From an uncultured Spirochaetota bacterium (GTDB lineage Bacteria; Spirochaetota; Spirochaetia; Treponematales; UBA12059): a DNA stretch of 60,739 bases. Numbering within the stretch: position 1 is the first letter of the stretch; every line of letters starts with the position of its first letter. Location: contig CALMRC010000103.1 of NCBI GenBank assembly GCA_937873275.1, forward strand, positions 1 through 60,739, in the 5' to 3' direction. The notes under the pieces are model-generated. The model saw only the letters and a program-made list of their open reading frames with translations, made no database searches and was not told the origin of the DNA. A program made the position numbers and the translations under genes. Below are positions 3,011-56,338 of this stretch, piece after piece.

Positions 3011-5827
3011 TCAGCTCAGCTTGCGCGTGACCTGGACCTGCTCGAAGATCTCCAGGATGTCCCCCACCTTGATGTCGGTGCATTTCTCGATGCCGATACC
3101 GCACTCGAACCCGGCGGCCACTTCCTTGGCGTCGTCCTTGAAGCGCTTGAGGGAGGAAAGTTTCCCGCTGAACACCTCGATGCCCTCCCGGATGACGCGT
3201 ACCCCGGCGTTCCGCTTGACCGTTCCCTCGGTGACCATGCAGCCCGCCACGACGCCGATCTTCGGGACGTGGAAGGTTTCCCGGACCTCCGCCTGGGCGA
3301 TGTCCTGCTCCTTGTACTCCGGAGCCAGCATGCCCTCCATGGCCTTCTCGATCTCCTCGACGGCCTTGTAGATGACGTTGTATTTCCGGATGTCCACCTT
3401 CTCCTGATCCGCCAGGAGCTTGGCCTTGGGGGTCGGCCGGACGTTGAAACCGATGATCAGGGCGTTGGAGGCGCTGGCCAGCATGATGTCGCTCTCGTGG
3501 ATGGCCCCCGCGCTGGCGTGGATGACGTTCAGGCGGACTTCCTTGGTCGAGAGCTTCTCCAGGGAGGACTTCAGGGCCTCCACGGATCCGTGGACGTCGC
3601 CTTTGATGACGACTTTGAGCTCCTGGACCGTGCCCTCGTGGATGGTGTCGTACAGGTTGTCCAGGGTGACCTTCTTGACCGTCTTGGCTTCCTCGTACCG
3701 CTTGAGCTCCTGGCGCTTGTCGGAGATCTGGCGGGCGAACTTCTCGTCCTCCACCGCCTCGAAGGGGTCTCCCGCGTTGGGCATGCCCTCGAACCCGATG
3801 ACTTCCACCGGGAAGGAGGGGGGAGCCTCATCCACCTTCTCCCCGTGGTCGTCGTACAGGGCCCGGACCTTTCCGGGATAGATGCCCGCCACGAAGGAGT
3901 CCCCCACGCGCAGGGTTCCGCGCTCGATGATGACCGTCGAGACGATGCCCCGGCCATGGTCGATCTTGGATTCCAGGACCTTCCCCTCGGCGCGGCAATC
4001 GTAGTTGGCGGTCAGTTCGAGAACCTCCGCCTGAAGGAGGATGGCGTCCAGGAGTTCCGATATGCCCTGTTTCTTGAGGGCGCTGATCTGGCAGAACATG
4101 GTGGTCCCGCCCCAGTCCTCGGCCACCAGTCCCTTCTCGGAGAGCTGGGTCTTGACCCGGTCGGGATTGGCGTCGGGCAGGTCGATCTTGTTCACCGCCA
4201 CGATGATGGGCACCCCGGCGGCCTTCGCGTGATCCAGGGCCTCCAGGGTCTGGGGCATGACGCCCTCGGTGGCCGCGACGACCAGGACCACGATGTCCGT
4301 GACCTGGGAACCTCGGGCCCGCATCATCGTGAAGGCCTCGTGGCCCGGGGTGTCCAGGAAGGTGATCTTTCCCTTGCCCGTGTCTACCTGGTAGGCTCCG
4401 ATGTGCTGGGTGATCCCGCCAAATTCCCCGGCCACCACGTCGGTCTTGCGGATGGCGTCCAGGAGCTTCGTCTTGCCGTGGTCGACGTGGCCCATGACCG
4501 TCACGATCGGCGGCCGGTGGGCCAAGTCCTCGGGCTTGTCCTTCTGCTTCTCGATGACCGTCTCGTCGTACAGGGACACGACCCGCACCTCGCAGCCGTA
4601 CTCGCCGGCGAGGATGGTGGCGGTGTCGGAATCGATCTGCTGGTTGATGGTGGCCATGAACCCCAGCTTCATGAGCTTTCCGATCAGTTCGCTGGGCTTC
4701 AGGTTCATCTTCCGGGCGAGCTCCGACACGGAGATGGTCTCGAGGATGTCGATCTTGGTCGGGATGGGATTCGCGATGGCTCCCTGCTTCTTCTTGGAGA
4801 GGTTGAGCTTCTGCGAAAATTCCTCTTCCCGATCCTTCTTGTTGTAGGTCGGCTTCTTGGACTTGATAAAGCGCTTGGGACCCTGGGGCCTCTTGTCCAG
4901 TCCCGGCGCCGGTCCCGAAGCGGGGCCTCGTCCGGGTCCGCCGGGACCCCGTCCTGGGCCGCCCTGGTATCCGCCGGGGCGTCCCTGGTAGCCGCCGGGC
5001 CGTCCCTGGTAGCCGCCGGTACCCTGTCCGGGGCCGCCCTGGTATCCGCCGGGGCGTCCCTGGTATCCGCCGGGCCGTCCCTGGTAGCCGCCGGTACCCT
5101 GTCCGGGGCCGCCTTGGTATCCGCCGGGCCTACCCTGGTATCCGCCGGAACCCTGACCGGGACCGCCCTGGTAACCCCCGGGCCGTCCCTGGTAGCCGCC
5201 GGAACCGCCCTGGTAGCCGCCGGAACCGCCGGAGCCGCCCTGATAGCCGCCCGGGCGTCCCTGGTAGCCGCCGGAGCCGCCCTGATAGCCGCCCGGGCGT
5301 CCCTGGTAGCCGCCGGAGCCGCCCTGATAGCCGCCGGAACCCTGTCCGGGACCGCCTTGGTAACCTCCGGGCCTGCCTTGGTAACCGCCCGGTCGTCCCT
5401 GGTAGCCGCCGGAGCCGGTGCCGCCCTGGTATCCGCCGGGCCGGCCGGCGGGAGGTGTGTAGGGTCTCGGGGCGCCGTCTTCCCGGCGCTCCGGAGCGGC
5501 GGGACGCGGACGGGAATCCGCCGCGGCCGCGGGGGCCGTGGAGGGAGCGGGCGCGGGCTTTTCCGCCGGCTTGGCCGGGACGGTACCCGTCGCGGGCCGT
5601 TCCGCCGGGGCCTCGGCCGCGGGCCGGTGATCCGGCACGGCCGCCTTGGGCTCCTCCTCGTGGCGGGCCACGACCCGCACCTGGGGCTTCTTGACGACCA
5701 CCTTCTTTTTGACGACGACCTTACGTTTCTCTCCGGAAACCGTCTCCGGCTGCTCCTCCGCGGGACGCGGTTTGGGCTGCTTTATGAGGGTCGCCTTCGA
5801 TTTCGGGTTCTCGTTGGTATCGGACAT
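3011..5827 (-). CDS. infB: Translation initiation factor IF-2 with long Gly-Tyr-Gln-rich N-terminal region
   Basis: GTPase that brings initiator tRNA to the 30S subunit. Order along its 938 residues: a basic and Ala/Pro-rich N-terminus (1-130); a repeat region 131-300 with about 20 GYQG units; a short IF-2 N-terminal helical domain (around 355-405, [17 protein letters not shown]); the G domain with [24 protein letters not shown] and NKIDLP; then domains II-IV. The repeat region is unusually regular (see separate entry). A small IF2_N domain directly before the G domain is normal. The gene lies 9 bases after nusA and 4 before rbfA. Confidence 0.97.
4928..5437 (-). repeat. In-frame DNA repeat coding for about 20 GYQG units in IF-2
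   Basis: Codons 131-300 of infB form a degenerate tandem array. The repeating unit is a 7-residue G-G-Y-Q-G-R-P or G-G-Y-Q-G-G-S/P, sometimes with a GQGS/T spacer. I count about 20 Tyr-Gln-Gly units. At DNA level the plus strand repeats the core CCCTGGTAGCCGCCGG with third-base changes. Synonymous variation shows that selection acts on the peptide, or that the array is old. Array length may vary between strains through slippage or recombination. Confidence 0.9.
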
Positions 5828-5836
5828 AGTCTCCCT

Positions 5837-7291
5837 TTACGATTCCTGGTCGTCTTCGTACTCGAAGCTGAGTTCGACGCCGCAGCTCGGGCAGTGCGTC
5901 ATCTCCGGCGTCACTCGGGCGCCGCAATCCGGACATTCATAGGCTTCCTCTTCCTCCACGGTTCCTTCCGCGGGAAGTTCCCCCTCCGGCTCCTCCTCCT
6001 CCTCGACCACTTCGACGTTCTCGTCGATGATCCGGCGGATGGACTCGAGGTCCTCGGCGGAGATGCCCTCCAGGGCCGCCTGCTGCTCCTCGGAGAGGGA
6101 AATGAACTCCTCGATGAGGTCGATCCCCCGTTCCTTGAGGGCGGCGACGGCCGCCTCGGGGACGCCCGGGAGCTCGGATAGCCGGGTGATCTCCTCTTCC
6201 TCCTCCGTGAAGAGTTCGGAGACCGCGCGCTTGAGGTCCACGGAGCGGTCCATCTGGTAGAACTGCTCCTCGGTCTTGACGTCGATGTTCCAGTCGCACA
6301 GGCGGTTGGCGAGGCGGACGTTGAGCCCCTGCTTGCCGATGGCCACGGAGAGCTGGTTGTCCGGCACGACCGCCAGGGCCATGCGCTTCGGCTCGTCCAG
6401 GACGAAGACTTCCTTCACGTCCGCCGGGGACAGGGCGTTCTTGATGAACCGCTTGGGGTCGATGTCGTACTTGAGGACGTCGATCTTCTCGCCCTCGAGT
6501 TCCCGGATGATGGACTGGATCCGGATGCCCTTGAGCCCCACGCAGGCGCCGACGGGGTCGACATCCTCCCGCTTGGAGAAGACCGCTATCTTGGTTCGGT
6601 ACCCGGGTTCCCGGACGATCTTGAAGACTTCCACGATGTTGTCGTAGATCTCCGGAACCTCGAGCTCCAGGATCTTGCGGACGAACTCGGCGTGGGTGCG
6701 GGACAGGACGATCTGGGGACCGGTCTTGGTCTTGTTCACCTCGACGATGTAAGCCTTGATCCGGTCGTTGGGATGGTAGGTCTCCCGGGGGGACTGGTAC
6801 TTCTTGGGAAGGACCCCTTCCACCCGGCCCAGGTCCACGTAGATGTTGCCGTTGCGGTCCCGCTGGTAGTACCCGATGATGATCTCCCCTACCTTGGATT
6901 TGTACTCCGCGTAGAGGGTATCCCGGGAGATCTCCCGGAGGTTCTGACGGGTGGTCTGCTTGGCCAGCATGACGGATTGGAGGTCGAATTCCCGGGGATC
7001 CACGGGCAGCTCGAGGATGTCCCCGACCTCGGCCTCCTCGCTGTAGGCCCGGGCCTCGTCGAGGGTGATCTCCAGGACCGGATCGTCGAGGTCCTCGACG
7101 ATGGTCTTCTTGGCGAAGATATCCACTCCCTCGTAGTTCTCCCGGAACCGGACGACGGCGTTCTCCGATGTCCCGTAGCGTTTCTTGTACGCCGCGAGGA
7201 GGGAGTCCTCGATCGTCTTAATCACGAGATCCTCGGAGATTCCCTTCTCGTAGATTAGCTGGCGTATCGCCTCGGCCATTTCTGAAGACAT
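5837..7291 (-). CDS. nusA: Transcription termination/antitermination factor NusA with C-terminal zinc ribbon
   Basis: RNA polymerase-associated factor that prolongs pausing and modulates termination. The 484 residues show the N-terminal domain (EMAEAIRQLIYEKGISED), an S1 domain, then two KH domains (DPVGACVGLKGIRIQSI and QLSVAIGKQGLNVRLA). A helical segment with one helix-hairpin-helix-like repeat follows (LSELPGVPEAAVAALKERGI). After an acidic stretch comes a zinc-ribbon-like tail, about residues 447-470, with two Cys pairs (CPDCG and CPSCG). Such a tail is not part of the usual NusA domain set. It lies 5 bases after rimP, in the classic rimP-nusA-infB order. Confidence 0.96.
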   Translation of the reverse strand: MSSEMAEAIRQLIYEKGISEDLVIKTIEDSLLAAYKKRYGTSENAVVRFRENYEGVDIFAKKTIVEDLDDPVLEITLDEARAYSEEAEVGDILELPVDPREFDLQSVMLAKQTTRQNLREISRDTLYAEYKSKVGEIIIGYYQRDRNGNIYVDLGRVEGVLPKKYQSPRETYHPNDRIKAYIVEVNKTKTGPQIVLSRTHAEFVRKILELEVPEIYDNIVEVFKIVREPGYRTKIAVFSKREDVDPVGACVGLKGIRIQSIIRELEGEKIDVLKYDIDPKRFIKNALSPADVKEVFVLDEPKRMALAVVPDNQLSVAIGKQGLNVRLANRLCDWNIDVKTEEQFYQMDRSVDLKRAVSELFTEEEEEITRLSELPGVPEAAVAALKERGIDLIEEFISLSEEQQAALEGISAEDLESIRRIIDENVEVVEEEEEPEGELPAEGTVEEEEAYECPDCGARVTPEMTHCPSCGVELSFEYEDDQES

Positions 7292-7296
7292 GGCGG

Positions 7297-7746
7297 TTAA
7301 GCTCCCTCCTGTGCGTAATCAAGCCGTGCTTTCGCGATGGACGCGTACTCGACGGTCCGTTCGCCCGAGGTCCCCCGAAGGGTCACCGTGGAGGGACCCG
7401 CCTGCACGATGCGGCCGGTAAGCCATTCGCCCCCCTCCTTGAGGAGGATCCGCACGCCCCGGCCCGCGAATATCGTATACTCCCGATCGGAACGGATCCA
7501 TCGATCCACCCCGGGGGAGGCGACTTCCAGGTGGAAGTCCTGTTCGGAAAGGAGGACCTGGAGCCTCGGCTGGATGAGCCGATGCGCCCGGGAGCACTCG
7601 TCGATCCCGGTTCCGGCGGGAGAATAGATCACCGCGCGGACCTGCACGGATCCGCGGTGCCGGCTCACGTTCAGCTCCACCAAAGAGAGCCCGGCGCCCG
7701 CGAGGAGTTCCTCCAAATCCTTCCTGTATATGTCGGTTTCCACCAT
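7297..7746 (-). CDS. rimP: Ribosome maturation factor RimP
   Basis: Binds free 30S subunits and is needed for their maturation. The ATG at 7746 gives a 149-residue protein starting MVETDIYRKDLEELL. The longer open frame upstream runs back through the promoter and a terminator hairpin and is rejected. The family motif DFHLEVASPGVDRWI is present (normally LEVSSPGxDRPL), together with an SM-like C-terminal half. GTAGGT stands next to the start codon as a weak ribosome site, directly behind the terminator T-run. First gene of the nusA-infB operon. Confidence 0.93.
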   Translation of the reverse strand: MVETDIYRKDLEELLAGAGLSLVELNVSRHRGSVQVRAVIYSPAGTGIDECSRAHRLIQPRLQVLLSEQDFHLEVASPGVDRWIRSDREYTIFAGRGVRILLKEGGEWLTGRIVQAGPSTVTLRGTSGERTVEYASIAKARLDYAQEGA

Positions 7747-7752
7747 ACCTAC

Positions 7753-7793
7753 AAAAAAAGAGTCGTGGGAACGACTCTTCTTATCCCTAAGAA
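7753..7793 (-). terminator. Leader hairpins and intrinsic terminator (attenuator candidate) before rimP
   Basis: On the minus strand the leader carries two hairpins in tandem. The first is a 6-bp stem (7788-7793 with 7778-7783) with a GGGA loop. The second is a 9-bp stem (7771-7779 with 7758-7766) with a TCCC loop, followed by a run of seven Ts that ends 7 bases before the rimP ATG. The second has the full form of an intrinsic terminator. The stems share two bases, so they compete at the junction, and the two loops are complementary. It lies between the rimP promoter and its start codon, so transcripts must pass it to express rimP-nusA-infB. Confidence 0.8.
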
Positions 7794-7814
7794 TAAGCTC
7801 TCTACGAAAGGTAT

Positions 7815-7842
7815 AGTATAGGAACGTCCTCCCCTTCGTCAA
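7815..7842 (-). promoter_or_regulatory. Sigma-70-type promoter of the rimP-nusA-infB operon
   Basis: On the minus strand TTGACG (7842-7837) and TATACT (7820-7815) are separated by 16 bases. Transcription would start near 7808, giving a leader of about 60 bases before rimP. This is one of the closest matches to consensus in the window. It points straight into the leader hairpins. Confidence 0.8.
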
Positions 7843-7929: not shown

Positions 7930-8634
7930 TCAATCGGCCGCCAGGACGACCGCGTCCACCCTCCGCGCCCCGCCGGTCCGGAGGATCCGGGCGCACTCGG
8001 ACAGGGTAGCCCCGGTGGTGAGGACGTCGTCCAACAGGACGACCCTCTCCGGGACCCGGGAGCCCGGACGCGGTCGTATCCTGCCGGAAAGATTCGACAT
8101 CCGGGCCGAATAGTCCAGGGTCTTCTGGGAAGCCCCCTCCCCCCGCTCCAGACAGCGGACCGCCGCGGTCCCCCTCCGTTCCAGGATACGGACGATGTCC
8201 TCCACCTGGTCCCATCCCGCCTTCCGGAACTTGCTCCGCCGGAACGGGACGGGAACGACGGGGATCCCCGGATGGAGATCGTCCAGGACGTCCTTCACCC
8301 GGCCCGCGAAGAACGCCGCGAGACGCCGGTTGCCCCCGATCTTGTAGGAGATCAGGAGATCCTGGATGGAACCGGCATATTCCCAAAGGGGATATGCTGA
8401 ATCGAAGCTGAACATCCGGTCCCGGCACCGCATGCACGCGCCCAGCTCCGAGATGAGGGGTTTCCCGCAAACCGGGCACCGTTCCCCTCGAATCCGGGGC
8501 AGACCGGCCTCGCAGCGGCCGCAGAGGGGGTACCGACGGTCGGCCTCCTCCAGGAGACCCCGGCCGCACAGGACGCAGGCCCGGGGGAGGAGGATCTCAA
8601 AAAGGCGGGCCATCCGGGAAGGGAGCTTTTCCAT
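7930..8634 (-). CDS. comF: ComF-type phosphoribosyltransferase-fold protein
   Basis: Member of the ComFC/GntX family, related to phosphoribosyltransferases and linked to DNA uptake in competent bacteria. The 234-residue protein begins with a four-Cys zinc module (CVLCG, CGRC) and a second one (CPVCG, CMRC). Near residue 198 it has the PRPP-loop signature VVLLDDVLTTGATLSE. It lies 40 bases after mutS and is probably co-transcribed with it. Without other competence genes in view its role here is open; the family call is firm. The stretch 7843-7929 after it holds only GC-rich short palindromes and the upstream edge of the rimP promoter. Confidence 0.88.
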   Translation of the reverse strand: MEKLPSRMARLFEILLPRACVLCGRGLLEEADRRYPLCGRCEAGLPRIRGERCPVCGKPLISELGACMRCRDRMFSFDSAYPLWEYAGSIQDLLISYKIGGNRRLAAFFAGRVKDVLDDLHPGIPVVPVPFRRSKFRKAGWDQVEDIVRILERRGTAAVRCLERGEGASQKTLDYSARMSNLSGRIRPRPGSRVPERVVLLDDVLTTGATLSECARILRTGGARRVDAVVLAAD

Positions 8635-56069: not shown

Positions 56070-56078
56070 TACATACCA

Positions 56079-56243
56079 TGGTCTCCGACCCGTCTCCGCC
56101 TAACCTTCCCGAACCGGGATCCAGGGCGAGCGGGCGGTGCCGGGCGGCTGGAGCCGAACCCTATCCGGGATTCCGCGCTCCGTTCGACCGGCCGAGGGTC
56201 CGGGGAGAAATCCCCGAGCCTCCCGTTCGGAAAGGAGAAACCA
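56079..56243 (+). promoter_or_regulatory. Moco/Tuco-type riboswitch candidate
   Basis: The 3' part (56192-56237) reads like the 3' part of the E. coli moaA leader. An outer 4-bp stem CCGA/TCGG (56192-56195 with 56227-56230) encloses a hairpin with a purine-rich AGAAAT loop (GGGG 56202-56205 with CCCC 56212-56215). It is followed by the conserved GCCTCCCG and then GGAAAGG. A closing stem pairs 56079-56086 (TGGTCTCC) with 56234-56243 (GGAGAAACCA), 8 bp with a 2-base bulge. This would bury the AAGGAG ribosome site (56232-56237). Further hairpins lie inside (TCCCG/CGGGA near 56107-56119; TCCAG/CTGGA 56120-56152). Ligand class and the fit of the 5' half to the Rfam model need checking. Context (tungstate transport, moaA, moaC) supports it strongly. 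Confidence 0.75.
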
Positions 56244-56245
56244 CG

Positions 56246-56338
56246 ATGACTCACCTCCCCATCCCTTCCAGGACAGACTCGGAATCGACTCCTCCGGGCC
56301 CCTCGGACCTCGACCGAACCCCGGGAGGAGAACGATGA
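56246..56338 (+). CDS. 30-codon leader ORF coupled to tupA
   Basis: ATG at 56246 has the best ribosome site in the leader (AAAGGAG, 8 bases upstream), the one the riboswitch stem would hide. The peptide begins MTHLPIPSRTDSESTPPG and ends in GGER; its stop overlaps the tupA start (ATGA at 56335). It has no signal peptide or known motif and is Pro/Ser-rich. Its role may be to carry the riboswitch decision to tupA by translational coupling, although tupA also has its own GGGAGGAG. No homologue is known to me. Confidence 0.5.
   Translation: MTHLPIPSRTDSESTPPGPSDLDRTPGGER

Follow-up and report, generated by a model that had tools for sequence, protein, structure and literature searches.

Organization of the rimP leader region

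The DNA analyzed here (the window) is a stretch of 60,739 nucleotides whose minus strand carries, according to Pfam, the genes for RimP, then NusA and then IF-2, with the leader under study lying directly 5′ of rimP in this rimP-nusA-infB operon (Table 1). Upstream of the leader there is a gene on the same strand that we take to be comF, as well as a mutS gene (Pfam), also on the minus strand. The deduced IF-2 contains long N-terminal repeats of the GGYQG(R/G)PGG type ahead of its conserved domains, and a Moco riboswitch (RF01055; 49.6 bits, exceeding the gathering score) is found elsewhere in the window (positions 56071–56253, plus strand).

Table 1. Predicted elements of the rimP leader and adjacent genes in the window.
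Feature	Position	Strand	Details
-35 element	7837..7842	-	TTGACG; from sequence
-10 element	7815..7820	-	TATACT; spacer of 16 bases; from sequence
Antiterminator hairpin (putative)	7773..7798	-	5′ arm 7798–7788; GNRA tetraloop GGGA 7787–7784; 3′ arm 7783–7773
Intrinsic terminator (predicted)	7753..7779	-	5′ arm 7779–7771; loop UCCC 7770–7767; 3′ arm 7766–7758; U-tract 7759–7753
rimP	7297..7746	-	First gene of the putatively controlled operon; 149 aa; ATG at 7746; Pfam RimP_N, E 9e-13
nusA	5837..7291	-	484 aa; C-terminal zinc ribbon; Pfam
infB (IF-2)	3011..5827	-	938 aa; Pfam
Upstream gene, ComF-like phosphoribosyltransferase	7930..8634	-	Pfam DZR_2 and Pribosyltran; outside the device

The initial annotation placed here a strong promoter, a small hairpin with loop GGGA and a full intrinsic terminator with loop TCCC and seven Ts, and all three were found, on the minus strand, which it had not stated. 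The promoter (7842–7815) is near-consensus, TTGACG and TATACT together matching 10 of 12 positions. The small hairpin is TTCTTA-GGGA-TAAGAA (7793–7778) and the terminator hairpin is AAGAGTCGT-TCCC-ACGACTCTT (7779–7758), with the seven Ts at 7759–7753; as described, both stems have two bases in common (7779–7778). The distance between the last T and the start codon of rimP is 6 bases, one fewer than given originally. From the spacing of the promoter, transcription is predicted to start at about position 7808, which would produce a leader of about 55 bases. A generic terminator scan of the window missed this terminator, probably because the scan lets the stem extend into the T-run.

An arrangement of promoter and terminator within 15–80 bases occurs at a single site in the 60.7-kb window, and in none of 100 dinucleotide shuffles. 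The fold of the leader had a z of -2.07 against its own shuffles, with 7 of 200 being equally good, and the plus-strand fold of the exact 90 bases first annotated gave a z of only -1.31.

Conservation of the terminator within the order

Of 58 related genomes from five families, 57 yielded a rimP gene, and we read the upstream DNA of all 57. A terminator precedes rimP in 55 of the 57 loci (53 of 56 by automatic scan, with L004 unscanned, plus L004 and L038 by inspection), so the conservation test proposed in the initial annotation, in which relatives lacking the stem or the T-run would have counted against it, did not go against it. As to the other two loci, G036 contains a decayed copy of the terminator and G032 (locus L056, from a 1.1-Mb genome) has none, which indicates that the leader terminator is dispensable in some lineages; two congeners of G032 (L125 and L126) keep it. 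In one of these loci, from G312, there is also a TD-2 RNA (RF03162, 57.2 bits; L125, 119–233, minus strand) 5′ of the rimP leader and on the other strand. All these counts come from related genomes, several of them incomplete metagenome bins, and are therefore not independent events.

An alignment of 55 terminators, 45 of them distinct (L028 and L056 excluded), showed pairing in 93.8% of the cells and 29 double-change cells, vs. 7.5 in shuffles and no more than eight in slid controls. Changes in the core stem include swaps of A-U and G-C in pair 2, of G-C to C-G or U-G in pair 3, and of U-A to C-G or U-G in pair 4; the second core pair is AU in 35 of the 45 distinct terminators, GC in eight and GU in two.

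In raw scan counts, 52 of the 54 leaders examined in the order have a promoter-like pair 5′ of the terminator, and in 51 of these 52 the -10 element is separated from the stem by 29–48 bases. No riboswitch or T-box aptamer or specifier was found by Rfam matching, and the 29–48 bases between the -10 and the terminator (51/54 leaders) are the only room for one. The terminator of G045 is 408 bases away from rimP and lacks a promoter. Likewise, the terminator of G022 (L011) is located directly 3′ of the upstream stop codon and no promoter was found; this locus looks as if the promoter and the antiterminator arm had possibly been deleted, with an assembly fault as the alternative. The orientation of the upstream gene, as deduced from the longest frame (same strand in 41 and opposite in 13 of 54 loci), is unreliable in G+C-rich DNA and was not used.

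A stem signature that marks rimP in Spirochaetota

The stem in the window is GAGUCG..CGACUC, and the spirochaete signature can be written as GAGUC(G)..(C)GACUC. The pattern GAGTCGN{1,6}CGRCTCTTTTT gave 32 matches in 31 of the 58 genomes, all of them at the rimP leader (one is the same site on the other strand); the terminator pattern is unique within the genome of the window. With a covariance model of the terminator, the rimP leader had the top rank in most of these genomes; in G053 and G026 another site scores higher, and G014 has additional good sites.

A stricter exact pattern retrieved at least 119 stretches from a wider collection of genome contigs. Among the matches listed, 24 of 25 loci with a spirochaete title precede rimP, the 25th ending 42 bases downstream, vs. 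none of 88 loci from other phyla (four with less than 700 bases downstream), and one of six loci without a phylum in the title. Judging from these listed matches, the GAGUC stem is a mark of rimP in Spirochaetota and an ordinary terminator elsewhere.

A phylum sample comprised another 40 regions 5′ of rimP, mostly one from each family, together with two from the genus of G032, and a terminator was found in 32. Classified by eye, the stems were GAGUC/AAGUC in 16 regions, GAGUGG/AAGUGG in ten and of another type in six, with none in eight; the pair following GAGU thus flips from C-G to G-C between groups. Additionally, some genomes of the order show GGG..CCC forms of the stem.

A competing hairpin in three families

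The initial annotation overlooked that the small hairpin forms the upper part of a longer one, of 11 pairs, that extends into the terminator, and that its GGGA loop is a GNRA tetraloop. This putative antiterminator shares seven bases (7779–7773) with the terminator, so that both hairpins use one common arm and are mutually exclusive.

For 56 leaders we scored the gapless pairing of the 11 bases ending in the terminator GAGUC with the best upstream 11-mer, obtaining 11 pairs in 13 leaders, ten in six and nine in five. These 24 leaders all belong to families f1, f2, and f4 (35 leaders), with none among the 21 from f3 and f5. Since 11 of the 35 leaders of the first three families and all 21 of the other two have a weak antiterminator or none, it is not essential to the device. 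Most leaders with 10–11 pairs were equalled by three or fewer of 500 shuffles (nine for L022 and 18 for L028). The leader in the window has nine gapless pairs, a value reached by 41 of 500 shuffles and not significant alone; alternatively, one bulged A allows ten pairs (-5.5 kcal/mol).

The 23 leaders with at least nine pairs (L028 excluded), together with L026 (eight pairs), were aligned, and 92.4% of the cells were paired vs. 52–59% in slid versions. The alignment contains seven double-change cells vs. 2.9 in shuffles, but one slid version has ten, so that covariation is modest. The 5′ arm (variants GAUUCU, GAUUUU, and GGUUUU) stays complementary to GAGUC in the terminator arm, and all ten four-base loops among the 24 leaders are GNRA (GGGA, GGAA, GCGA, GUGA, or GAAA). 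Eleven held-out leaders from unused genomes could all form at least ten of the 11 pairs, and GNRA was also the type of all eight four-base loops among them, although this sample is biased because it was found with a model that included the antiterminator hairpin.

Outside families f1, f2, and f4, raw counts of the same pairing test ranged from four to nine of 11 in 29 leaders (27 from other orders and classes of the phylum, and two from f3). Five of the 25 leaders from the scan of genome contigs, among the matches listed, clearly beat their shuffles (six or fewer of 500); of these five, L166 is new and the others had been sampled before.

Two further features were considered and set aside. The complementarity of the loops claimed in the initial annotation holds in the window (GGGA/UCCC), but it is not conserved: among the leaders compared, the loop pair occurs only in G000 and G001, and kissing of the loops was rejected as a conserved feature. 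The loop match is thus accidental to this genus, and what is conserved is the longer stem overlapping the terminator arm. A leader peptide was likewise rejected as a general mechanism, since by eye none is present in L016, L055, the genus of the window, or f4. In several leaders of genus g5, ATGGTTTTTCTT opens a frame almost at the predicted transcription start (by eye). The antiterminator arm begins with ATGGT(T/A)TTTCTT near the predicted start in L008, L009, L010, L013, L015, and L026 (genus g5 and G007), and a nearly leaderless short peptide is thus possible there.

Folding and proposed mechanism

The computed energies for 12 leaders were -4.6 to -10.6 kcal/mol for the antiterminator and -11.5 to -12.9 kcal/mol for the terminator. 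In growing-chain folding of four leaders, the antiterminator formed first and the terminator last; in L019, the antiterminator was still preferred until the first Us were made.

Conservation, covariation and the placement before rimP lend strong support to the attenuator-like leader proposed in the initial annotation, as far as sequence comparison goes. We consider it rather probable, by these comparisons and by analogy, that the leader is a promoter-proximal transcription attenuator of rimP-nusA-infB with NusA as the likeliest signal. Polymerase would start at about position 7808 and meet a strong intrinsic terminator after about 55 bases, and the operon mRNA would be made only by those polymerases that read through. 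In the genus of the window and in most relatives from three families, the 11-pair antiterminator would fold first and occupy the first arm of the terminator. Termination would be the default, because the terminator is more stable than the antiterminator, and the lifetime of the latter would set the level of read-through. About 55 bases after the start, NusA is only just joining the polymerase. From what is seen in Bacillus subtilis and E. coli, free NusA joining soon after the start would favor the terminator hairpin, so that ample NusA would favor termination and NusA would limit its own operon. This feedback by NusA is a plausible and the likeliest control, given the precedent of B. subtilis, for which the primary paper on termination in the nusA leader is reportedly that of Mondal in 2016. 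A counterpoint to NusA is that the terminator looks strong, with an uninterrupted U-tract; the NusA-dependent terminators of Bacillus are typically weak.

Four other readings were weighed. It is conceivable, if unlikely, that the attenuator is real but that read-through is set by a factor other than NusA that holds or melts the antiterminator; candidates would be RimP, IF-2, an RNA chaperone of the cold-shock type, and temperature itself. GNRA tetraloops often serve as contact sites, and the energies of antiterminator and terminator are close in some relatives (-10.6 vs. -12.1 in L030). Additionally, the E. coli operon, with terminators before rimP, is described as rising on cold stress in PMC6511841, whose text cites Bae 2000 on antitermination by the CspA family. 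There is, however, no conserved element besides the two hairpins, and leaders without a visible antiterminator still conserve the terminator sequence, so that the target of the common signal is probably the terminator or the polymerase.

The narrow spacing between promoter and terminator and the many lineages without antiterminator would also fit a fixed damper, in which the terminator would reduce the yield of a strong promoter to a constant fraction, without regulation. This we regard as improbable, because a weaker promoter would suffice for this purpose and because an unregulated device hardly accounts for the strongly conserved stem sequence and for a hairpin dedicated to competition.

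Less probable still is that the upstream hairpin serves not as an antiterminator but as a pause hairpin, stabilized by NusA and holding up polymerase within the terminator. Its distance from the terminator loop, about 11 bases on the upstream side, is typical of pause hairpins, but its pairing continues into the terminator arm over GAGUC, to which the 5′ arm is kept complementary, and a pause hairpin has no need of this. Lastly, an ordinary terminator of the gene on the comF side, insulating rimP, would agree with the upstream gene being on the same strand and with the arrangement in G022, where the terminator follows the stop codon without a promoter, but is very improbable given the promoter-like pair in 52 of 54 loci and a stem pattern that is confined to this site in these genomes and tracks rimP across the phylum.

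A further reading, conceivable if unlikely, is a phylum-wide change of the recognition code: the spirochaete polymerase and NusA might read the GAGUC stem in a sequence-specific manner some 40 bases after the -10, timing the joining of NusA, and the GNRA-capped antiterminator of some families might tune this timer. As the reader of the GAGUC stem, we considered the zinc ribbon of NusA (CPDCGA..CPSCGVELSFEYEDD), which occurs in the window, in L001–L030, in L247–L266 and in many spirochaete NusA proteins, including those of most GAGUC-bearing relatives examined. It is absent from NusA in the four GAGUGG/AAGUGG genomes examined (G103, G137, G172, and G238), but also in three GAGUC families (G100, G175, and G243), and G032 and G296 keep it yet have no signature. 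The presence of the ribbon follows phylogeny, and its link with the stem is unsupported.

The biological effect would be modest if this were merely one more feedback loop. What the rimP-leader senses and why the sequence of its stem is conserved are questions on which this variant may bear: a phylum with another signature, and families with or without the competing hairpin, are natural variants for the study of sequence recognition by NusA. The variant also yields a search model that can be used in Spirochaetota; the Rfam model matched nothing in the loci searched.

Comparison with known leaders of the operon

Premature terminators before rimP in other phyla, invoked in the initial annotation, are indeed described: the rimP-leader is the first-ranked and most ubiquitous predicted attenuator in the text of Naville and Gautheret (2010; PMC2965389), where its general form has a GGGc..gCCC stem and no visible antiterminator, with NusA named as the most promising candidate. 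The main text of that paper contains neither Spirochaet nor Treponema as a word. Our literature search retrieved no paper on a spirochaete rimP leader (subscription papers were mostly outside its coverage), and the main text of a map of Borrelia 3′ ends (PMC10319736) mentions neither rimP nor infB. A comparison with the Rfam rimP leader model, suggested in the initial annotation, gave no match: the covariance search with RF01770 was negative at every threshold tried, including relaxed E-values. RF01770 is presented as the gammaproteobacterial form of the rimP-leader in the text of PMC5955585, and agrees with our device in the gene, in its position and in being based on a terminator.

Two known leaders of the same operon differ from this one in their layout. 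The leader of the B. subtilis nusA operon also has a premature intrinsic terminator before the same operon, and according to a review (PMC12288461) NusA controls its own synthesis there by stimulating termination in that leader; the leader is about 180 bases long as given in PMC2965389, vs. the about 55 predicted here. In E. coli, as outlined in PMC6511841, the terminators t1 and t2 precede rimP in metY-rimP-nusA-infB, and NusA regulates its own operon. There too the terminators lie upstream of rimP, but in a long leader that contains a tRNA and several promoters, whereas the spirochaete leader is compact, with one promoter and one terminator.

The likeness to the rimP-leader, as characterized in the text of PMC2965389, is closer. 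Both consist of an intrinsic terminator with a conserved stem and a U-tract in the leader of rimP-nusA-infB, without a riboswitch-like aptamer. The rimP-leader is located 4–130 bases before the gene, a range that includes the 6 bases of the window and is exceeded by several relatives, to about 250 bases, and by the 408 of G045. In both, the signature is restricted to the rimP leader, here in 31 genomes and in the spirochaete loci listed, and outside the phylum it occurs at other terminators. Conversely, the window lacks the strict GGGc..gCCC motif and has GAGUCG..CGACUC instead, with GAGUGG..CCACUC in other spirochaete groups; since A-U and G-C replace each other at the second pair across relatives, the GAG and GGG forms of the stem are interchangeable. 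Additionally, and unlike in the general form, an antiterminator is visible here in families f1, f2, and f4 of the order, and not in f3 and f5. On the evidence of sequence comparison, the device is a Spirochaetota variant of the rimP-leader, that is, a known kind of switch with its own stem signature and a competing hairpin.
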